From Iodidimonas sp. SYSU 1G8 (GTDB taxonomy: Bacteria > Pseudomonadota > Alphaproteobacteria > SMXS01), in assembly GCF_039655775.1 (NCBI RefSeq), contig NZ_JBBYXJ010000002.1:1-64000 (forward strand): a stretch of 64,000 nt of DNA, written 5' to 3'. Positions 26,350-33,288 of the stretch are shown one piece after another (the stretch's first letter is position 1; each line of letters opens with the position of its first letter). The notes under the pieces were generated by a model. That model made no database searches. It worked only from the letters and a program-made list of their open reading frames with translations, and was not told the DNA's origin. The position numbers and the translations under genes were made by a program.

Positions 26350-26413
26350 CGCACGCTTCGCGTGGAAAATTTGCCTCTCGACGTTGCGGATACGAAATGG
26401 CACTCATTCACGC

Positions 26414-27514
26414 ATGATTAAACGAATGCTCATCATGGTGCTGGCCCTGGTCGTCGTGCTCGGCGGCATTTTCGGCTGGAAGGCCTATCAGGGTGCCAAG
26501 ATGGCGGCGACCATGGCGAACATGAAGCCGCCGCCCGCCGCCGTCTCCTCGTCCGTGGTGAAAGAGGAAACCTGGCGCTCGGAGCTGACCGCCGTCGGCA
26601 CGCTCCGCGCGGTCCAGAGCACCGATCTGACCGCCGAGACGGCCGGCATCGTGCGGGAAATCCTGTTCGAATCCGGCGCCGAAGTGAAACGCGGGACGCC
26701 GCTCGTGCGCCTCGATTCTTCCACCGAACAGGCCCGACTGAAATCTCTCGAGGCGCAGGTGGCGCTGGCTCGAGCGACGTTCGAGCGCGACACCCGCCTG
26801 ATCGGCCAGGGCCACGTCTCGCAGGCCCGGCTCGATACCTCGAAAAGCAGCCTCGACAGCCTGCTGGCGCAGGCCGAGGAGCAGAAGGCCGTGATCGCCA
26901 GGAAGACCATCACCGCGCCCTTCTCGGGACGGCTGGGCATCCGCCAGGTCAATCTGGGCCAGTTCATCCAGGCCGGCACGCCCATGGTCGAGCTGCGCCA
27001 GATGGACCCGATCTATGCCAACTTCACCCTGCCCGAGCGCTATCTGGACGCCATCGGCCAGGGACAGGACGTGCGTTTCGCCGTCGCCTCGTTCCCCGGG
27101 CGCACCTTCACCGGCAAGGTGACCGCCGTCAGCCCGCAGGTCGATGCCGCGTCGCGCAGCGTGGCGGTGCAGGCAACGATCGCCAATCCGGACAGGACAC
27201 TGCGCCCCGGCATGTCGGCGCAGATGACGGTCGGCCTGCCCGACGAGCGCGCGGTGCTGACCCTGCCGCAATCGGCGGTCACCTATAACCCCTACGGCAA
27301 CGCGGTGTTCCTGATCGTCGACAAGGACGGCGCGCGCATCGTGCAGACGACGCCGATCAAGACCGGCGAAATCCGCGGCGGCGCCATCGAGATCCTCGAT
27401 GGGCTCAAGGCCGGTCAGGAAGTGGTCAGCGTCGGCCAGAACAAGCTGCGCAACGGCGTGACCGTCGCCGTCGACAACCGCGTCGCTCCGCCGCAGGCGG
27501 TGAACGCGCCATGA
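26414..27514 (+). CDS. RND efflux periplasmic adaptor (membrane fusion protein)
   Basis: A 366-residue MexA/AcrA-family adaptor. The N-terminal membrane anchor is MLIMVLALVVVLGGIFGW, followed by a biotinyl-lipoyl half ELTAVGTLRAVQSTDLTAETAG, a helical hairpin (QARLKSLEAQVALARATFERD), FSGRLGIRQVNLGQFI, and beta-barrel and MP domains (PERYLDAIGQGQDVRF, VTYNPYGNAVF). It bridges the inner-membrane pump to an outer-membrane channel. The permease gene begins 13 bases downstream. The start MIKRM has no strong ribosome site. Confidence 0.92.
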   Translation: MIKRMLIMVLALVVVLGGIFGWKAYQGAKMAATMANMKPPPAAVSSSVVKEETWRSELTAVGTLRAVQSTDLTAETAGIVREILFESGAEVKRGTPLVRLDSSTEQARLKSLEAQVALARATFERDTRLIGQGHVSQARLDTSKSSLDSLLAQAEEQKAVIARKTITAPFSGRLGIRQVNLGQFIQAGTPMVELRQMDPIYANFTLPERYLDAIGQGQDVRFAVASFPGRTFTGKVTAVSPQVDAASRSVAVQATIANPDRTLRPGMSAQMTVGLPDERAVLTLPQSAVTYNPYGNAVFLIVDKDGARIVQTTPIKTGEIRGGAIEILDGLKAGQEVVSVGQNKLRNGVTVAVDNRVAPPQAVNAP

Positions 27515-27527
27515 CGGGCCGCCGGCG

Positions 27528-30500
27528 GTGAGGTGGACCGACATCTTCGTCCGCCGGCCCGTGCTGGCCAGCGTGATCAGCCTGCTGATCCTGCTGATCG
27601 GCCTGCGCTCCATCGCCATGATGGAATTGCGCGAATATCCCGAGACCAAGACCACCGTGGTCACGGTACGCACCACCTATCCGGGCGCCAGCGCCGACGT
27701 CATCCAAGGCTTCGTCACCACGCCGCTGCAGCAGGCCGTCGCCGAAGCGGACGGCATCGACTACATCTCCTCCACCAGCACCCAGGGCACGTCGGTGATC
27801 GAGGCGCACATGCGCCTGAACTACGATCCCAACGCGGCGGTCTCGGAAATCCAGGCCAAGGTGGCGAGCCAGCGCAACGTGCTGCCGCGCGAGGCCGAGG
27901 ACCCGGTCATCAGTTCCTCGACCGGCGACAACATGGCGCTGATGTACGTCGCGTTCTTCAGCGAGAAGATGACGCCGTCGCAGATCACCGACTACCTGCT
28001 GCGCGTCGTCCAGCCCAAGCTTCAGGCCATACCGGGCGTCGCCAAGGCCGGCCTGATCGGCGAGAAGACCTTCGCGCTGCGCGTCTGGCTGGATCCGGCG
28101 CGGCTGGCCGCCCACGACATGACCGCCGACGACGTGGCCGCCGCCCTGCGGGCCAACAATTACCTGGCCGCCGCGGGCAAGACCAAGGGCGCCGCCGTCG
28201 CCATCGACATGAGCGCCGAGACCGACATCCGCGATCCCGACAAGTTCCAGGACATGGTGCTGCGCGCCGACGGCGACCGCATGGTGCGCCTGCGCGACGT
28301 GGCCACGGTGGAGCTTGGCTCGAAGAACTACGAGATCACCAGCTGGTACAACGGCAAGATGGCCATGTTCCAGTTCGTCGAGACCACGCCCGGCGCCAAC
28401 CCGCTGGCGGTCAGCAAGGCGGTGCGGGCGCTGCTGCCGGACATCGAATCCCAGTTGCCCACCGGCCTCGAGATGGATCTGGCGGTGGATTTCAGCGAGT
28501 ACATCGACGAATCCATCGACGAGGTGTTCTGGACGCTGGGCGAGACGGTGCTGATCGTGCTGCTCGTCATCCTGATCTCGCTCGGATCCCTGCGCGCCGC
28601 CGTCATTCCCAGCGTGGTCGTGCCGCTGGCGCTGGTCGGCTGCGCGTTCCTGATGCTGATGATGGGTTTCTCCATCAATCTGCTGACCCTGCTCGCCATG
28701 CTGCTCGCCATCGGCCTCGTCGTCGACGACGCCATCGTCGTGGTCGAGAACGTGGACCGGCACATCGTCGAGGGCATGACCCCGTTCCAGGCGGCCATCG
28801 CCAGCGGCCGCGAACTGGTGGTGCCGATCATCTCCATGACCACGACGCTGGTCGCCGTCTACGCCCCGATCGGCTTCATGGGCGGTCTCGTCGGCACCCT
28901 CTTCGTCGAATTCGCCTTCGCCCTCGCCGGATCGGTGCTGATCTCGGGCATCGTGGCGCTGACCCTGTCGCCCATGCTGGCCTCGCGCATCCTCAAACCG
29001 CACTCGGAACATGGCCGCTTCGAGCAGCGGGTGCAGCAGTTCTTCCAGTCCCTGTCGGACCGCTACCAGCGGGTGCTGCACGGGTCGCTGAACTATGTGC
29101 CGGTGACCATGGTGTTCGCCGCCGTGGTGCTCGCCAGCATCTATTTCATGTTCGTCACCACCAAGACCGAGCTGGCGCCGCCGGAAGACCAGGGCATCCT
29201 GTTCGTCCAGACCAGCGCGCCGCAGACCGCGACCATCGACTACGTCCAGACCTATGCCCGCGAGATGGTCAAGCAGTTCGAGACCATTCCCGAATACCGC
29301 CACAGCTTCCTGATGCTGGGCGGCAGCGGTGACCCCAGCCTGAGCTTCGGCGGCTTCAAGCTGGTCGCCAGCAGCGAACGCGAACGGTCGGTGTTCGAGA
29401 TCTACCCGGAGATCCAGGGCAAGGTGTCGCAGATCCCCGGCGTGCAGGTGAACATGGGCCCGCGTCCCAGCCTGCCGGGCAGCGGCGGCGGTTTTCCCGT
29501 GCAGTTCGTCATCACCTCGCACCACGACTTCACCGAACTGGACCAGGTCGCGAGCGATCTGCTTGGCAAGGCCATGGCATCGGGCCAGTTCATGTTCCTG
29601 CGCAAATCCACCGAATTCAGCCGGCCGCGCACCACCGTGGAAGTGGACCGGGAACGCGCCGCGCAGCTGGGCATCGACATGCAGGAAGTCGGCGGCAATC
29701 TGTCCGCCATGCTCGGCGGCGCCTATGTCAACCGCTTCAGCCTGGAAGGCCGCAGCTACGAGGTGATCCCGCAGGTGGCGCGCGACTTCCGCGCCAACAG
29801 CGAGTTGCTGGACAGCTATTACGTCCGCGCCGGCAGCGGCGATCTGGTACCGCTCTCGACCATCGTGACCTTCAAGGACACGGTGGAACCGAGCAAGCGC
29901 ACCCAGTTCCAGCAGCTCAACTCGGTAACCCTCGAAGGCGTACCCGCGCCCGGCATCACTCTCGGCGTGGCGCTGGACACGCTGGAACGGGCCGCCAAGG
30001 ACAGCTTCCCGCAGGGCTTCACCTATGACTACACCGGCGAATCCCGCCAGTACGCCCAGGAAGGCAGCGCGCTGGTCTTCACCTTCTTCCTGTCGATCCT
30101 GGTGATCTACCTGGTGCTGGCCGCCCAGTTCGAAAGCTGGCGCGACCCGATCATCATCCTCGTGTCGGTGCCCATGTCCATCGCCGGCGCGCTCGCGTTC
30201 ATGACCCTGGGCTTCGCCAGCATCAACATCTACACCCAGGTCGGCCTGATCACGCTGATCGGCCTGATCGCCAAGAACGGCATCCTGATCGTGGATTTCG
30301 CCAACCAGCTGCAGATCCAGAAGGGCCTGAGCAAGCGCGATGCCGTGGAACAGGCCGCCGCCGTGCGCCTGCGCCCCATCCTGATGACCACCGTCGCCAT
30401 GATGGTCGCCATGGTCCCGCTGCTGCTCGCCGACGGCCCCGGCGCCAAGAGCCGCTTCGACATCGGCCTCGTCATCAGCACCGGCCTCGGCATCGGCACC

Positions 30501-30599
30501 CTGTTCACCCTGTTCGTGGTGCCCGCCGTCTACATGCTGATGGCCCGCGACCAGAGCGACAAGGCGCGCGCCATCGCGCCGCACCCGCAAATCCCCTGA
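27528..30599 (+). CDS. RND multidrug efflux permease
   Basis: A 1023-residue HAE1/MexI-like inner-membrane pump. The start MRWTDIFVRRPVLASV is typical. The first membrane helix is followed by a large periplasmic loop, TM4 carries the proton-relay pair in GLVVDDAIVVVEN, and GLIAKNGILIVDFAN marks the second half. The GTG start at 27528 follows the adaptor. No TolC-like outer-membrane gene is nearby, so the channel must be supplied from elsewhere. Substrates are unknown; hydrophobic toxins are usual. Confidence 0.94.
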   Translation: MRWTDIFVRRPVLASVISLLILLIGLRSIAMMELREYPETKTTVVTVRTTYPGASADVIQGFVTTPLQQAVAEADGIDYISSTSTQGTSVIEAHMRLNYDPNAAVSEIQAKVASQRNVLPREAEDPVISSSTGDNMALMYVAFFSEKMTPSQITDYLLRVVQPKLQAIPGVAKAGLIGEKTFALRVWLDPARLAAHDMTADDVAAALRANNYLAAAGKTKGAAVAIDMSAETDIRDPDKFQDMVLRADGDRMVRLRDVATVELGSKNYEITSWYNGKMAMFQFVETTPGANPLAVSKAVRALLPDIESQLPTGLEMDLAVDFSEYIDESIDEVFWTLGETVLIVLLVILISLGSLRAAVIPSVVVPLALVGCAFLMLMMGFSINLLTLLAMLLAIGLVVDDAIVVVENVDRHIVEGMTPFQAAIASGRELVVPIISMTTTLVAVYAPIGFMGGLVGTLFVEFAFALAGSVLISGIVALTLSPMLASRILKPHSEHGRFEQRVQQFFQSLSDRYQRVLHGSLNYVPVTMVFAAVVLASIYFMFVTTKTELAPPEDQGILFVQTSAPQTATIDYVQTYAREMVKQFETIPEYRHSFLMLGGSGDPSLSFGGFKLVASSERERSVFEIYPEIQGKVSQIPGVQVNMGPRPSLPGSGGGFPVQFVITSHHDFTELDQVASDLLGKAMASGQFMFLRKSTEFSRPRTTVEVDRERAAQLGIDMQEVGGNLSAMLGGAYVNRFSLEGRSYEVIPQVARDFRANSELLDSYYVRAGSGDLVPLSTIVTFKDTVEPSKRTQFQQLNSVTLEGVPAPGITLGVALDTLERAAKDSFPQGFTYDYTGESRQYAQEGSALVFTFFLSILVIYLVLAAQFESWRDPIIILVSVPMSIAGALAFMTLGFASINIYTQVGLITLIGLIAKNGILIVDFANQLQIQKGLSKRDAVEQAAAVRLRPILMTTVAMMVAMVPLLLADGPGAKSRFDIGLVISTGLGIGTLFTLFVVPAVYMLMARDQSDKARAIAPHPQIP

Positions 30600-30603
30600 G
30601 CCG

Positions 30604-31485
30604 TCACGGCGCGTCCGCCGCGCGCCGTGCCTTGAGCTCGCGCAGGAAACCGTGCAGCACTTCCGTCGACAGGCCGTGCAGCACCAGCCGGAAGCCGGCC
30701 TGCAAGGTCGAGAACGGCACCAGCGGATGCCGGTTGTTGATCATCGCCAGGTGCTTTTCCTCGCCCGTCAGCCGCGCCGCGTAGAGCCCGATGGTCTCGT
30801 CGAGCTGGAGCGAATTCGCCGCCCGCCAGAAATCCCGGTCGGTCAGCAGCAGCGCATAGGCCGGCGTGTACAGCTCGATGGCCGTGTGCAGATCGATGAC
30901 ATTGAAGCGGCCCTCGGGAATCTCGTCCAGCACGATCTCGTCCGTGATGGCCGAGAAATCCAGATGCTCGACCCGGCCGACCACGGCGCCGCGGCGCGCC
31001 AGCTCCTGATTCAGCTGGATCAGGAAATTGTACATGTTCAGGTCGTGATTGAGGAACAGGTTGGCGCGCACGTCATCGGTCCGCCGCGGCGTCATCGGCT
31101 CCAGTTCGGGCCGGAAACCCGGCGTCGCGTTGTCGGCGATGAACCGCAGGATCTGCGCGCCGAGATGGAAATGGCGCAGGATCAGCGTGTTCGCGTCCCG
31201 CGTCAGGAAATGCTTCATCCCGAACGCGATGCTCCAGTGCAGGAAGCGCGGCGCGTGCGGCCAGCGCGGCGTCACCATGTGGATCAGCTGCGCCAGCACG
31301 ATGACCAGCCGCGAAAAGGGCCGCACCACCGGCAGCAGGAACTGCCGGCTGCGCGAGGCCTGTCCGCGAATCAGCGCCGCCTTGGCCGCCGGATCGAACG
31401 GCAGCGAGCGGTCCAGCGCCAGCGCCAGCCAGGGATCGGGATCGCGCCGGTCATACGGCGTTCCGGGGACGGCCGGCTCAGACAT
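30604..31485 (-). CDS. Uncharacterised His-rich protein of the KAS III/diiron operon
   Basis: A 293-residue protein, probably soluble with one hydrophobic stretch (LVIVLAQLIHMVTP). Conserved-looking segments include LILRHFHLGAQILRF, LFLNHDLNMYNFLIQLNQEL and LTGEEKHLAMINNRHPL; the His and acidic residues could bind metal or a lipid head group. I recall a similar family labelled DUF6999 beside KAS III and haem-oxygenase-like genes, but I could not check this. Its ATG overlaps the preceding stop by 8 bases. Function unknown; a role in finishing or carrying the product of the two upstream enzymes is plausible. Confidence 0.72.
   Translation of the reverse strand: MSEPAVPGTPYDRRDPDPWLALALDRSLPFDPAAKAALIRGQASRSRQFLLPVVRPFSRLVIVLAQLIHMVTPRWPHAPRFLHWSIAFGMKHFLTRDANTLILRHFHLGAQILRFIADNATPGFRPELEPMTPRRTDDVRANLFLNHDLNMYNFLIQLNQELARRGAVVGRVEHLDFSAITDEIVLDEIPEGRFNVIDLHTAIELYTPAYALLLTDRDFWRAANSLQLDETIGLYAARLTGEEKHLAMINNRHPLVPFSTLQAGFRLVLHGLSTEVLHGFLRELKARRAADAP
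30605..30629. terminator. Hairpin at the convergent efflux/DUF junction
   Basis: CACGGCGCG and CGCGCCGTG pair perfectly (9 bp) around a 7-base loop, starting 5 bases after the permease stop and overlapping the last codons of the minus-strand gene. There is no T run, so it may act as an mRNA end-stabiliser instead of a classical terminator. Confidence 0.45.
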
Positions 31486-32152
31486 TGTCCAGTTCCTCGA
31501 GCTGCAGCCGGTAGAGCCGGGCGACGATCCTGGCGTGCCGCACGATGTCCTCCGACTCCGCGGGACCGCGCACCGCCAGCGCGAGCGCCCGGTCGAACAT
31601 GTCCAGGTGATCGCCGTCATTCTCGCCGTGATAGAGCAGGAAGCTGACGGCCTCCTCGCCCAGCGACAGCTGCGCCCGCACCGCCTCGCCCCAGGACCGC
31701 GCCAGCCGGTTGCCCAGCCCCTCGATGATGAACATGGCGCCCAGCAGCCCGACCGGATCGGCCTTCGACGCCGCCTGGTACATGAACGCCGACAGCGCCT
31801 CGGACCCGATGTTCTTCCGGGCCGACAGGATGTCCTCGCGCACACCGCCGGCCGCGACATAATTGTCCTCCAGCATCCGGTAATCCCGGTGCTCGGCCGC
31901 CGCGTGCAGCACGAACAGCGAGCGCAGCTCTTCATGCGCGGGACCCAGATTGGACGCGGCGCGGATGATCCAGCGGCTGCCCTCCACCACCTGCTGGCGC
32001 AGATTGAGCAGCAGCCGGCGGTAATCCTCGGGACGCAGCCGGCCCGAAAGGAGGCGCGCGATCACGGGCACCTGCGAAAGCGCGCTCTCGAAATCGATCC
32101 AGACCCGTGCCAGTCCGCGGTGCGTCGCCTCGATCGCGCTGTCCCCGGTCAT
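31478..32152 (-). CDS. Haem-oxygenase-like diiron oxidase/oxygenase (HDO) family protein
   Basis: A 224-residue all-helical protein of the iron-containing redox enzyme type. The C-terminal ligand motif HxxxDxxH is seen exactly as His175-Asp179-His182 in HGENDGDH. Glu144 (FIIEGLGNR), Glu58 (QQVVEGSR) and the HAAAEH stretch at 83-88 are candidate remaining ligands. Known HDO members decarboxylate fatty acids to alkenes (UndA), modify amino acids, or make folate precursors (CADD). It starts 2 bases after the KAS III stop. Substrate inferred to be acyl-derived from the neighbour, unproven. Confidence 0.78.
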   Translation of the reverse strand: MTGDSAIEATHRGLARVWIDFESALSQVPVIARLLSGRLRPEDYRRLLLNLRQQVVEGSRWIIRAASNLGPAHEELRSLFVLHAAAEHRDYRMLEDNYVAAGGVREDILSARKNIGSEALSAFMYQAASKADPVGLLGAMFIIEGLGNRLARSWGEAVRAQLSLGEEAVSFLLYHGENDGDHLDMFDRALALAVRGPAESEDIVRHARIVARLYRLQLEELDNV

Positions 32153-32154
32153 TC

Positions 32155-33288
32155 TTAACCCTCCACCACGGTCATCGCCGCATAGGCCATCACGCACTGG
32201 CCGCTTTCCGGCACCGCGCACAGCACGCGCTGGCCCGGCCGCAGCCTGTCCGACTTCATCAGATCGTCGATCAGCAGGAACAGCGAGGCCGCGCCCACAT
32301 TGCCCTTGTCGTAGAGATTGGTGAACCAGCGCTCCTCCGGGATCATGCAGCCGGCGCGGGTCGCCAGCCGGACCATCTCCTCGCGCAGGCTGTGCGCCGA
32401 GAAATGGCACAGGAACCAGTCGACCGCCCCCGGATCGATCTTGCCCTCGTCGACCAGCCGCATGAACTCGCCCATCCACACGGGCAACATCCGGTAGAGC
32501 GCGTCCACGTCCTGGCGCAGCTGGAACGCGCCGGCGCGCGCCGCCTCGCCGATGCCGTCATGCAGGCTCCAAGGCTTGATGCCGCCATCCTCCGTGCGCA
32601 CCGCGCCGCCGGTCATGCACGGCGTGAAACGGTCGGCGAAGGATCGCAGCGAGATCCAGTCGATCCGCAGCGACGGCCCGCGCCGCGCCGGCCTGTCCTC
32701 GACCAGCACGGCGGCGGCGCCGTCGCTGAGCGTCCAGCGGAGGAACTCGGCATCGCCGGGCAGAGTGCCGTCCTCGCGCAGGGTCGCCGTGTCCTGATAG
32801 AAACCCGGCCGGAAATAGCGGCTGGAGAATTCGGCGCCCACCGCGAGCGCCGCCCTGTGTTCGCCGGCGGCGACCTGCAGCCATGCGGTCTTCAGCGCCA
32901 TCATGGCGCTGGCGCACACGCTTTGCAGGCTGGCGATTTCCATGGGCGGCAGACCCGCTTCCGCGTGCACGCCGCTGGCGAGCCCCGGCACCATCGTGTC
33001 GTTCTGCGTCGTCGCGGTGGCGAGGAATCCCACGTCGGCCGCGTCCAGTTCGGCGCCGCCCAGCACGTCATCCACCGCGCGGGCGGCCAGTCTCGCCACC
33101 GTCCAGTCACTGCTCCCGTCGGGCCGGATGGCGTAGTGGCGGGTGCGGATGCGGTTCTGGCGCAAGGTCAGCCGTCCTAGGCGCTCGGCCTCGGGTGAAA
33201 GCCGGCCGATATGGTCCGCCATCCGGTCGTTCCCGACTGGCGCGCCCGGAAGACATTGGCCGGATGCGGTTATGTAGACGGAATTCAT
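32155..33288 (-). CDS. Beta-ketoacyl-ACP synthase III-like enzyme
   Basis: A 377-residue thiolase-fold enzyme with catalytic Cys125 in LQSVCASAMM, the His region CHFSAHSLREEM (His295, His299) and Asn330 in DKGNVGAASLF. It is longer than housekeeping FabH (~320 residues), and fabD, fabG and acpP are absent nearby, so it belongs to a secondary pathway. Such enzymes condense or transfer acyl groups, sometimes to non-ACP acceptors. GAGGAG sits just upstream of ATG 33288. It heads a three-gene operon with spacings of 2 and -8 bases. Confidence 0.88.
   Translation of the reverse strand: MNSVYITASGQCLPGAPVGNDRMADHIGRLSPEAERLGRLTLRQNRIRTRHYAIRPDGSSDWTVARLAARAVDDVLGGAELDAADVGFLATATTQNDTMVPGLASGVHAEAGLPPMEIASLQSVCASAMMALKTAWLQVAAGEHRAALAVGAEFSSRYFRPGFYQDTATLREDGTLPGDAEFLRWTLSDGAAAVLVEDRPARRGPSLRIDWISLRSFADRFTPCMTGGAVRTEDGGIKPWSLHDGIGEAARAGAFQLRQDVDALYRMLPVWMGEFMRLVDEGKIDPGAVDWFLCHFSAHSLREEMVRLATRAGCMIPEERWFTNLYDKGNVGAASLFLLIDDLMKSDRLRPGQRVLCAVPESGQCVMAYAAMTVVEG

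Follow-up and report, generated by a model that had tools for sequence, protein, structure and literature searches.

A conserved operon of StlD/DarB-like ketosynthase, haem-oxygenase-like diiron and DUF6999 genes: a candidate route to ring-bearing lipids

Introduction

StlD and DarB are ketosynthase-cyclases that serve the dialkylresorcinol, flexirubin and Photorhabdus stilbene pathways. Their chemistry was reportedly set out by Fuchs et al. in 2013. The ring product carries a carboxylate on the carbon adjoining C5-H. The 2-enoyl-ACP partner is already supplied by fatty acid synthesis, and DarB has no need of an enzyme that makes it. DarB and DarA together yield dialkylresorcinol, and darA mutants produce none (PMC3992019, PMC6403133).

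Haem-oxygenase-like diiron oxidases/oxygenases (HDOs) form a superfamily of more than 10,000 members, of which about a dozen have been characterised; these proteins carry out several kinds of oxidation, and most substrates of the characterised ones are fatty acids or amino acids (PMC13108848). UndA converts fatty acids to 1-alkenes and CO2, while PolF and MboA are capable of desaturation, and a 2026 review lists metal-site variants of the types 3H/3C, 3H/4C with an extra Glu, and mononuclear (PMC13108848). No function has been described for the DUF6999 family, and our literature search found neither a paper naming DUF6999 nor one joining an HDO with dialkylresorcinol or StlD/DarB chemistry. 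Here we analyse an operon in which genes of these three kinds (the trio; Table 1) lie together in a 64,000-nucleotide stretch of DNA from Iodidimonas sp. SYSU 1G8 (the window).

Table 1. Position of the trio and of the neighbouring RND genes in the window.
Feature	Position	Strand	Length	Remarks
KAS III-type ketosynthase	32155..33288	-	377 aa	runs 33288-32155, stop TAA
HDO (haem-oxygenase-like diiron oxidase/oxygenase)	31478..32152	-	224 aa	
DUF6999 protein (third gene)	30604..31485	-	293 aa	
RND genes	26384-30599	+		convergent with the trio, end 4 bases from the DUF6999 stop

Results and Discussion

The trio is a conserved and partly fused unit

In the window, 2 bases separate the ketosynthase gene from the HDO gene and the HDO and DUF6999 genes overlap by 8 bases; on these minus-strand coordinates, the spacings of +2 and –8 given in the original prediction are exact. 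That prediction had also proposed a genome-neighbourhood survey for the trio. We scanned the genomes of 84,980 species with the DUF6999 protein as the query and obtained 65 loci; when extra loci from whole genomes were added, we found all three genes at 70 loci (69 distinct, as L016 and L081 are one place), which makes the trio strongly conserved. At each of the 70, the genes lie on one strand in the order ketosynthase, HDO, DUF6999. At two loci (L044 and L048) the trio is incomplete and the contig ends there, and in Novosphingobium profundi (L011) no KAS III gene lies beside the HDO gene and the ketosynthase is found elsewhere in the same genome. One candidate locus (L066) was rejected as a chance match. 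The hosts are Sphingomonadales and other alphaproteobacteria, Burkholderiales, Azoarcus, Chitinibacteraceae, Iodobacter and Myxococcaceae. Caulobacter vibrioides likewise has a DUF6999 protein. The trio on a contig labelled Bacillus sp. 2B10 (L021) is 70–78% identical to the alphaproteobacterial one, and this assembly is probably mislabelled or contaminated.

Seven of 299 Pseudomonadota genomes contain DUF6999, and these same seven, and no others, contain the trio-type ketosynthase and the trio-type HDO (Fisher p 2.5e-14, with kinship between the genomes ignored). The trio proteins are clearly set off from their next relatives in this sample, with scores of 569–620 bits as compared to at most 395 bits for the ketosynthase and 318–343 bits as compared to at most 97 bits for the HDO. 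We examined seven further members of the family to which the window belongs and all lack DUF6999, and by maximum likelihood the window ketosynthase nests among proteins of Sphingomonadales; the operon is therefore sporadic and has probably moved horizontally.

At 46 loci, in betaproteobacteria and Myxococcaceae, the ketosynthase and the HDO are encoded as a single open reading frame of about 620–660 codons; Collimonas and Iodobacter are among the hosts of such a single chain. The linker between the two domains spans 15–50 residues in the seven fusions examined and is frequently rich in Ala and Pro. In most unfused copies the two genes share 4 bases, at the start of the HDO and the stop of the ketosynthase. 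The kept gene order, the exclusive co-occurrence and the fusion together give strong support to the earlier suggestion that the three genes act together, and the joining of the HDO with a condensing enzyme suggests the condensation product as its substrate. At seven loci (L033, L042, L052, L057, L059, L060 and L062), which are some of the Myxococcaceae and Iodobacter-type loci, about 340–1200 bases lie between the fusion gene and the DUF6999 gene.

Directly upstream of 40 of the 41 fused betaproteobacterial loci, we found a gene pair for a fatty acid hydroxylase and a fatty acid desaturase, which belong to PF04116 and PF00487, respectively, at the loci scanned; the remaining locus has the desaturase without the hydroxylase, and the hydroxylase gene is also present at one Myxococcaceae locus. 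These neighbours place the trio in lipid metabolism. The pair precedes the fusion at betaproteobacterial loci within L023–L065 and L076–L079. A PDB sequence search with the betaproteobacterial desaturase returned no relative, and we noticed no dedicated carrier protein at the trio loci. In place of the hydroxylase/desaturase pair, several alphaproteobacterial loci, from Sphingomonadales and in one case from Roseiarcaceae, have a TetR-family regulator gene, which is kept beside the trio and is usually divergent (L008–L011, L013–L016 and L020).

The ketosynthase belongs to a sister subfamily of StlD/DarB

The best NCBIfam match of the window ketosynthase is StlD/DarB at 326 bits, as compared to at most 79 bits for FabH-type models. 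This agrees with the original assignment of the protein to a secondary-pathway type of KAS III, although the score is below the 450-bit cut-off of the model (PRK06816), as is the 290-bit score against the DarB model with its cut-off of 550 bits. The fused form likewise falls below both cut-offs, with 331 and 266 bits. When the ketosynthase profile was compared with solved structures, StlD was closest at 385.8 bits and the best FabH-type chain reached 87 bits. The Cys125/His295/Asn330 triad and Glu153 line up with their counterparts in StlD and DarB. Eight DarB/StlD proteins share 95 invariant columns, of which the trio proteins retain 45 (each in at least 92% of sequences) and differ at 30. 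By maximum likelihood, the trio ketosynthases form their own clade apart from DarB/StlD (support 89/100), in a tree whose rooting is unsure because the FabH outgroup has a very long branch.

The trio ketosynthase thus shares with the StlD/DarB ketosynthase-cyclases a full-length family, the C-H-N triad with Glu153 and 45 of the 95 invariant columns, and differs in its separate clade, in its coupling or fusion to an HDO and DUF6999, and in having no adjacent DarA. Since the clade is separate and the scores lie below the curated cut-offs, its sequence marks it as a sister subfamily of StlD/DarB and not as DarB itself. It likely shares their ring-forming chemistry; however, the low scores, the separate clade and the 30 changed columns mean that it may catalyse another reaction.

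We found DarA in both of the DarB genomes searched and in none of the 19 trio genomes searched. At DarB loci, a DarA-like gene adjoins DarB, and several of these loci also have BtrH-like, ABC transporter and carrier-protein genes; neither the trio HDO nor DUF6999 was found in the DarB stretches read.

The HDO has a changed ligand pattern

Residues H83, E87, D90, E144, H175, D179 and H182 of the HDO are invariant in 53 trio sequences. They include the exact HxxxDxxH motif of the original prediction (H175-D179-H182) and, with E87 and E144, the core set of the HDO superfamily. The AlphaFold2 model (pLDDT 95) has the haem-oxygenase-like helical fold and is closest, among solved folds, to 3dde (Z score 27.1, rmsd 1.9 over 217 residues) and CADD (Z score 24.7). 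UndA is among the Foldseek matches of the model. PDB sequence searches, however, returned 3dde (function unknown) as the only relative and not UndA, and an assignment to UndA by sequence was rejected; what the trio HDO has in common with UndA is the fold alone.

Compared with UndA, CADD, SznF, BesC and 3dde as a group, the trio HDO has the same fold and the core predicted ligands E87, E144 and HxxxDxxH. In contrast, the usual third His of the ExxH motif is replaced by the invariant D90 (ExxD), and there is an additional invariant His, H83, seven residues upstream. Position 90 is His in 3dde and in the 13 best-scoring other HDOs of the 299-genome sample, and position 83 is Tyr in those 13. This pattern fits none of the ligand variants as reviewed (PMC13108848). 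The HDO is a putative dimetal, O2-activating enzyme, but UndA chemistry is not to be assumed for an HDO that lacks the canonical third-His position.

HDOs related to that of the trio occur in 53 further genomes among the 299 sampled. At two places (L124:1-2139 and L126:1468-3519) an HDO domain is fused C-terminal to an AMP-binding ligase. These resemble the ketosynthase fusions in that the HDO lies C-terminal to an acyl-handling enzyme, and differ in that the partner is an AMP-binding ligase and ExxH is kept.

DUF6999 is a putative helical metalloenzyme

The third gene, which the original prediction called uncharacterised, can be given a family: it is a clear member of DUF6999 (PF22523; 371.5 bits against a gathering cut-off of 27, E 2.6e-111). 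The lack of a described function stands. The AlphaFold2 model (pLDDT 91) is all helical. A Foldseek comparison of the model with the PDB gave no assignable relative (best E 1.7), and VIA-align gave a best Z of 4.3, with matches spread over unrelated helical receptors. DUF6999 was not detectable as a distant HDO (hhalign probability 0.1), and we found no convincing second Pfam family in it. The invariant residues are H83, H105, H147, D148, E204, D229, E230, H253, H270, E275 and H278, and in the model the His, Asp and Glu residues from H105 to H278 are spread over several helices, which makes a second metalloenzyme plausible. A hydrophobic helix near residues 50–68 (best 19-residue hydropathy, family mean 1.76) suggests that the protein contacts the membrane.

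A possible pathway to a resorcinol-type lipid

Taken together, these data tentatively suggest, with a probability that we put at roughly 0.38, that the trio is a biosynthetic operon for a ring-bearing lipid of the cyclohexanedione/resorcinol type, and that the HDO serves in it, instead of DarA, as an O2-dependent aromatase. The StlD/DarB-like ketosynthase would condense a 3-oxoacyl thioester with a 2-enoyl thioester, both drawn from fatty acid metabolism, and cyclise the product to a 2,5-dialkylcyclohexane-1,3-dione that bears a carboxylate adjoining C5-H. This unstable beta-keto acid could be handed over directly, since HDO and ketosynthase are fused or translated together. With O2 and a dimetal site, the HDO would then strip the beta C-H and CO2 in the bond change made by UndA; on the ring carboxylate, this loss would create the double bond needed for a resorcinol, which the resulting enone would reach by tautomerisation, so that the HDO would do the work of the DarA/StlC aromatase. 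A further step would fall to DUF6999, which is probably a helical metalloenzyme associated with the membrane, and in betaproteobacteria the desaturase and the hydroxylase would tailor the chains. An HDO acting as the aromatase would explain both its tethering to the ketosynthase and the absence of DarA, but DUF6999 could equally have that role. A fuller version of the proposal, which we think unlikely, has the HDO as a decarboxylating O2-dependent aromatase joined to a ketosynthase-cyclase, with a rearranged His83/Glu87/Asp90 metal site in place of ExxH, and DUF6999 as a second metalloenzyme of unsolved fold in the same pathway to an undescribed lipid class.

The evidence on the ketosynthase (the StlD profile match and the triad) would apply equally if the cyclohexanedione or resorcinol that it forms were oxygenated or decorated by the HDO, DUF6999 or both, for example to a hydroxyquinone, with no aromatisation by oxidative decarboxylation. 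Several HDO oxidations are known (PMC13108848), and the invariant His, Asp and Glu residues on separate DUF6999 helices in the model would be consistent with a second metal site. With DarA absent, however, aromatisation would lack an enzyme unless it falls to DUF6999, and we consider ring decoration possible but doubtful.

A route like that of UndA, in which the HDO converts an unbranched, ring-free acyl chain to a terminal alkene, a desaturated product or an alkyne and the ketosynthase only elongates or condenses chains, would agree with the shared fold and with the preference of characterised HDOs for fatty or amino acids (PMC13108848). The desaturase and hydroxylase genes that adjoin the betaproteobacterial fusions and the AMP-binding ligases fused to related HDOs elsewhere fit it as well, but the ketosynthase groups with the ring-forming StlD/DarB and far from FabH, an invariant Asp occupies the His position of ExxH, and the fusion points to a condensation product as the HDO substrate. 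We therefore find this route rather improbable, and its alkene form weaker than the cyclohexanedione/resorcinol-type reading. The least probable order of events has the HDO precede the ketosynthase and make the 2-enoyl partner required for StlD-type ring closure; fatty acid synthesis gives 2-enoyl-ACP, DarB works without such an enzyme, and the missing DarA is left unexplained, although the coupling to the ketosynthase fits this order too and PolF and MboA can desaturate (PMC13108848).

As an aromatase, the HDO would possibly represent a second, O2-dependent finish for DarB-type lipids, in easily grown bacteria. Fusion to a KAS III gives a direct genetic hint at the HDO substrate, a kind of hint that is rare in the HDO superfamily, and it offers substrates that can be tested on an HDO whose ligand pattern is altered. 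The trio also gives DUF6999 a pathway context. The original prediction of an undescribed lipid or hydrocarbon route was right in kind and probably wrong in detail: the betaproteobacterial hydroxylase and desaturase genes, and a literature in which we found no paper joining these families, favour its lipid part, whereas the ligand pattern and the StlD/DarB-like ketosynthase lend little to an UndA-type hydrocarbon, and the RND partner likewise probably falls away.

Other genes in the window

The RND pump does adjoin the trio in convergent orientation, as had been reported, but it is an accidental neighbour: an RND homologue lies near only one other trio locus (L020, 31% identity), and the pump was rejected as a component of the system for want of conservation across the trio loci. 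On the side of the trio opposite the pump is a BrkB-type gene, which is no companion of the trio copies elsewhere. Positions 2-1090 of the window encode the end of a YadA-like trimeric autotransporter adhesin with 45-base repeats.
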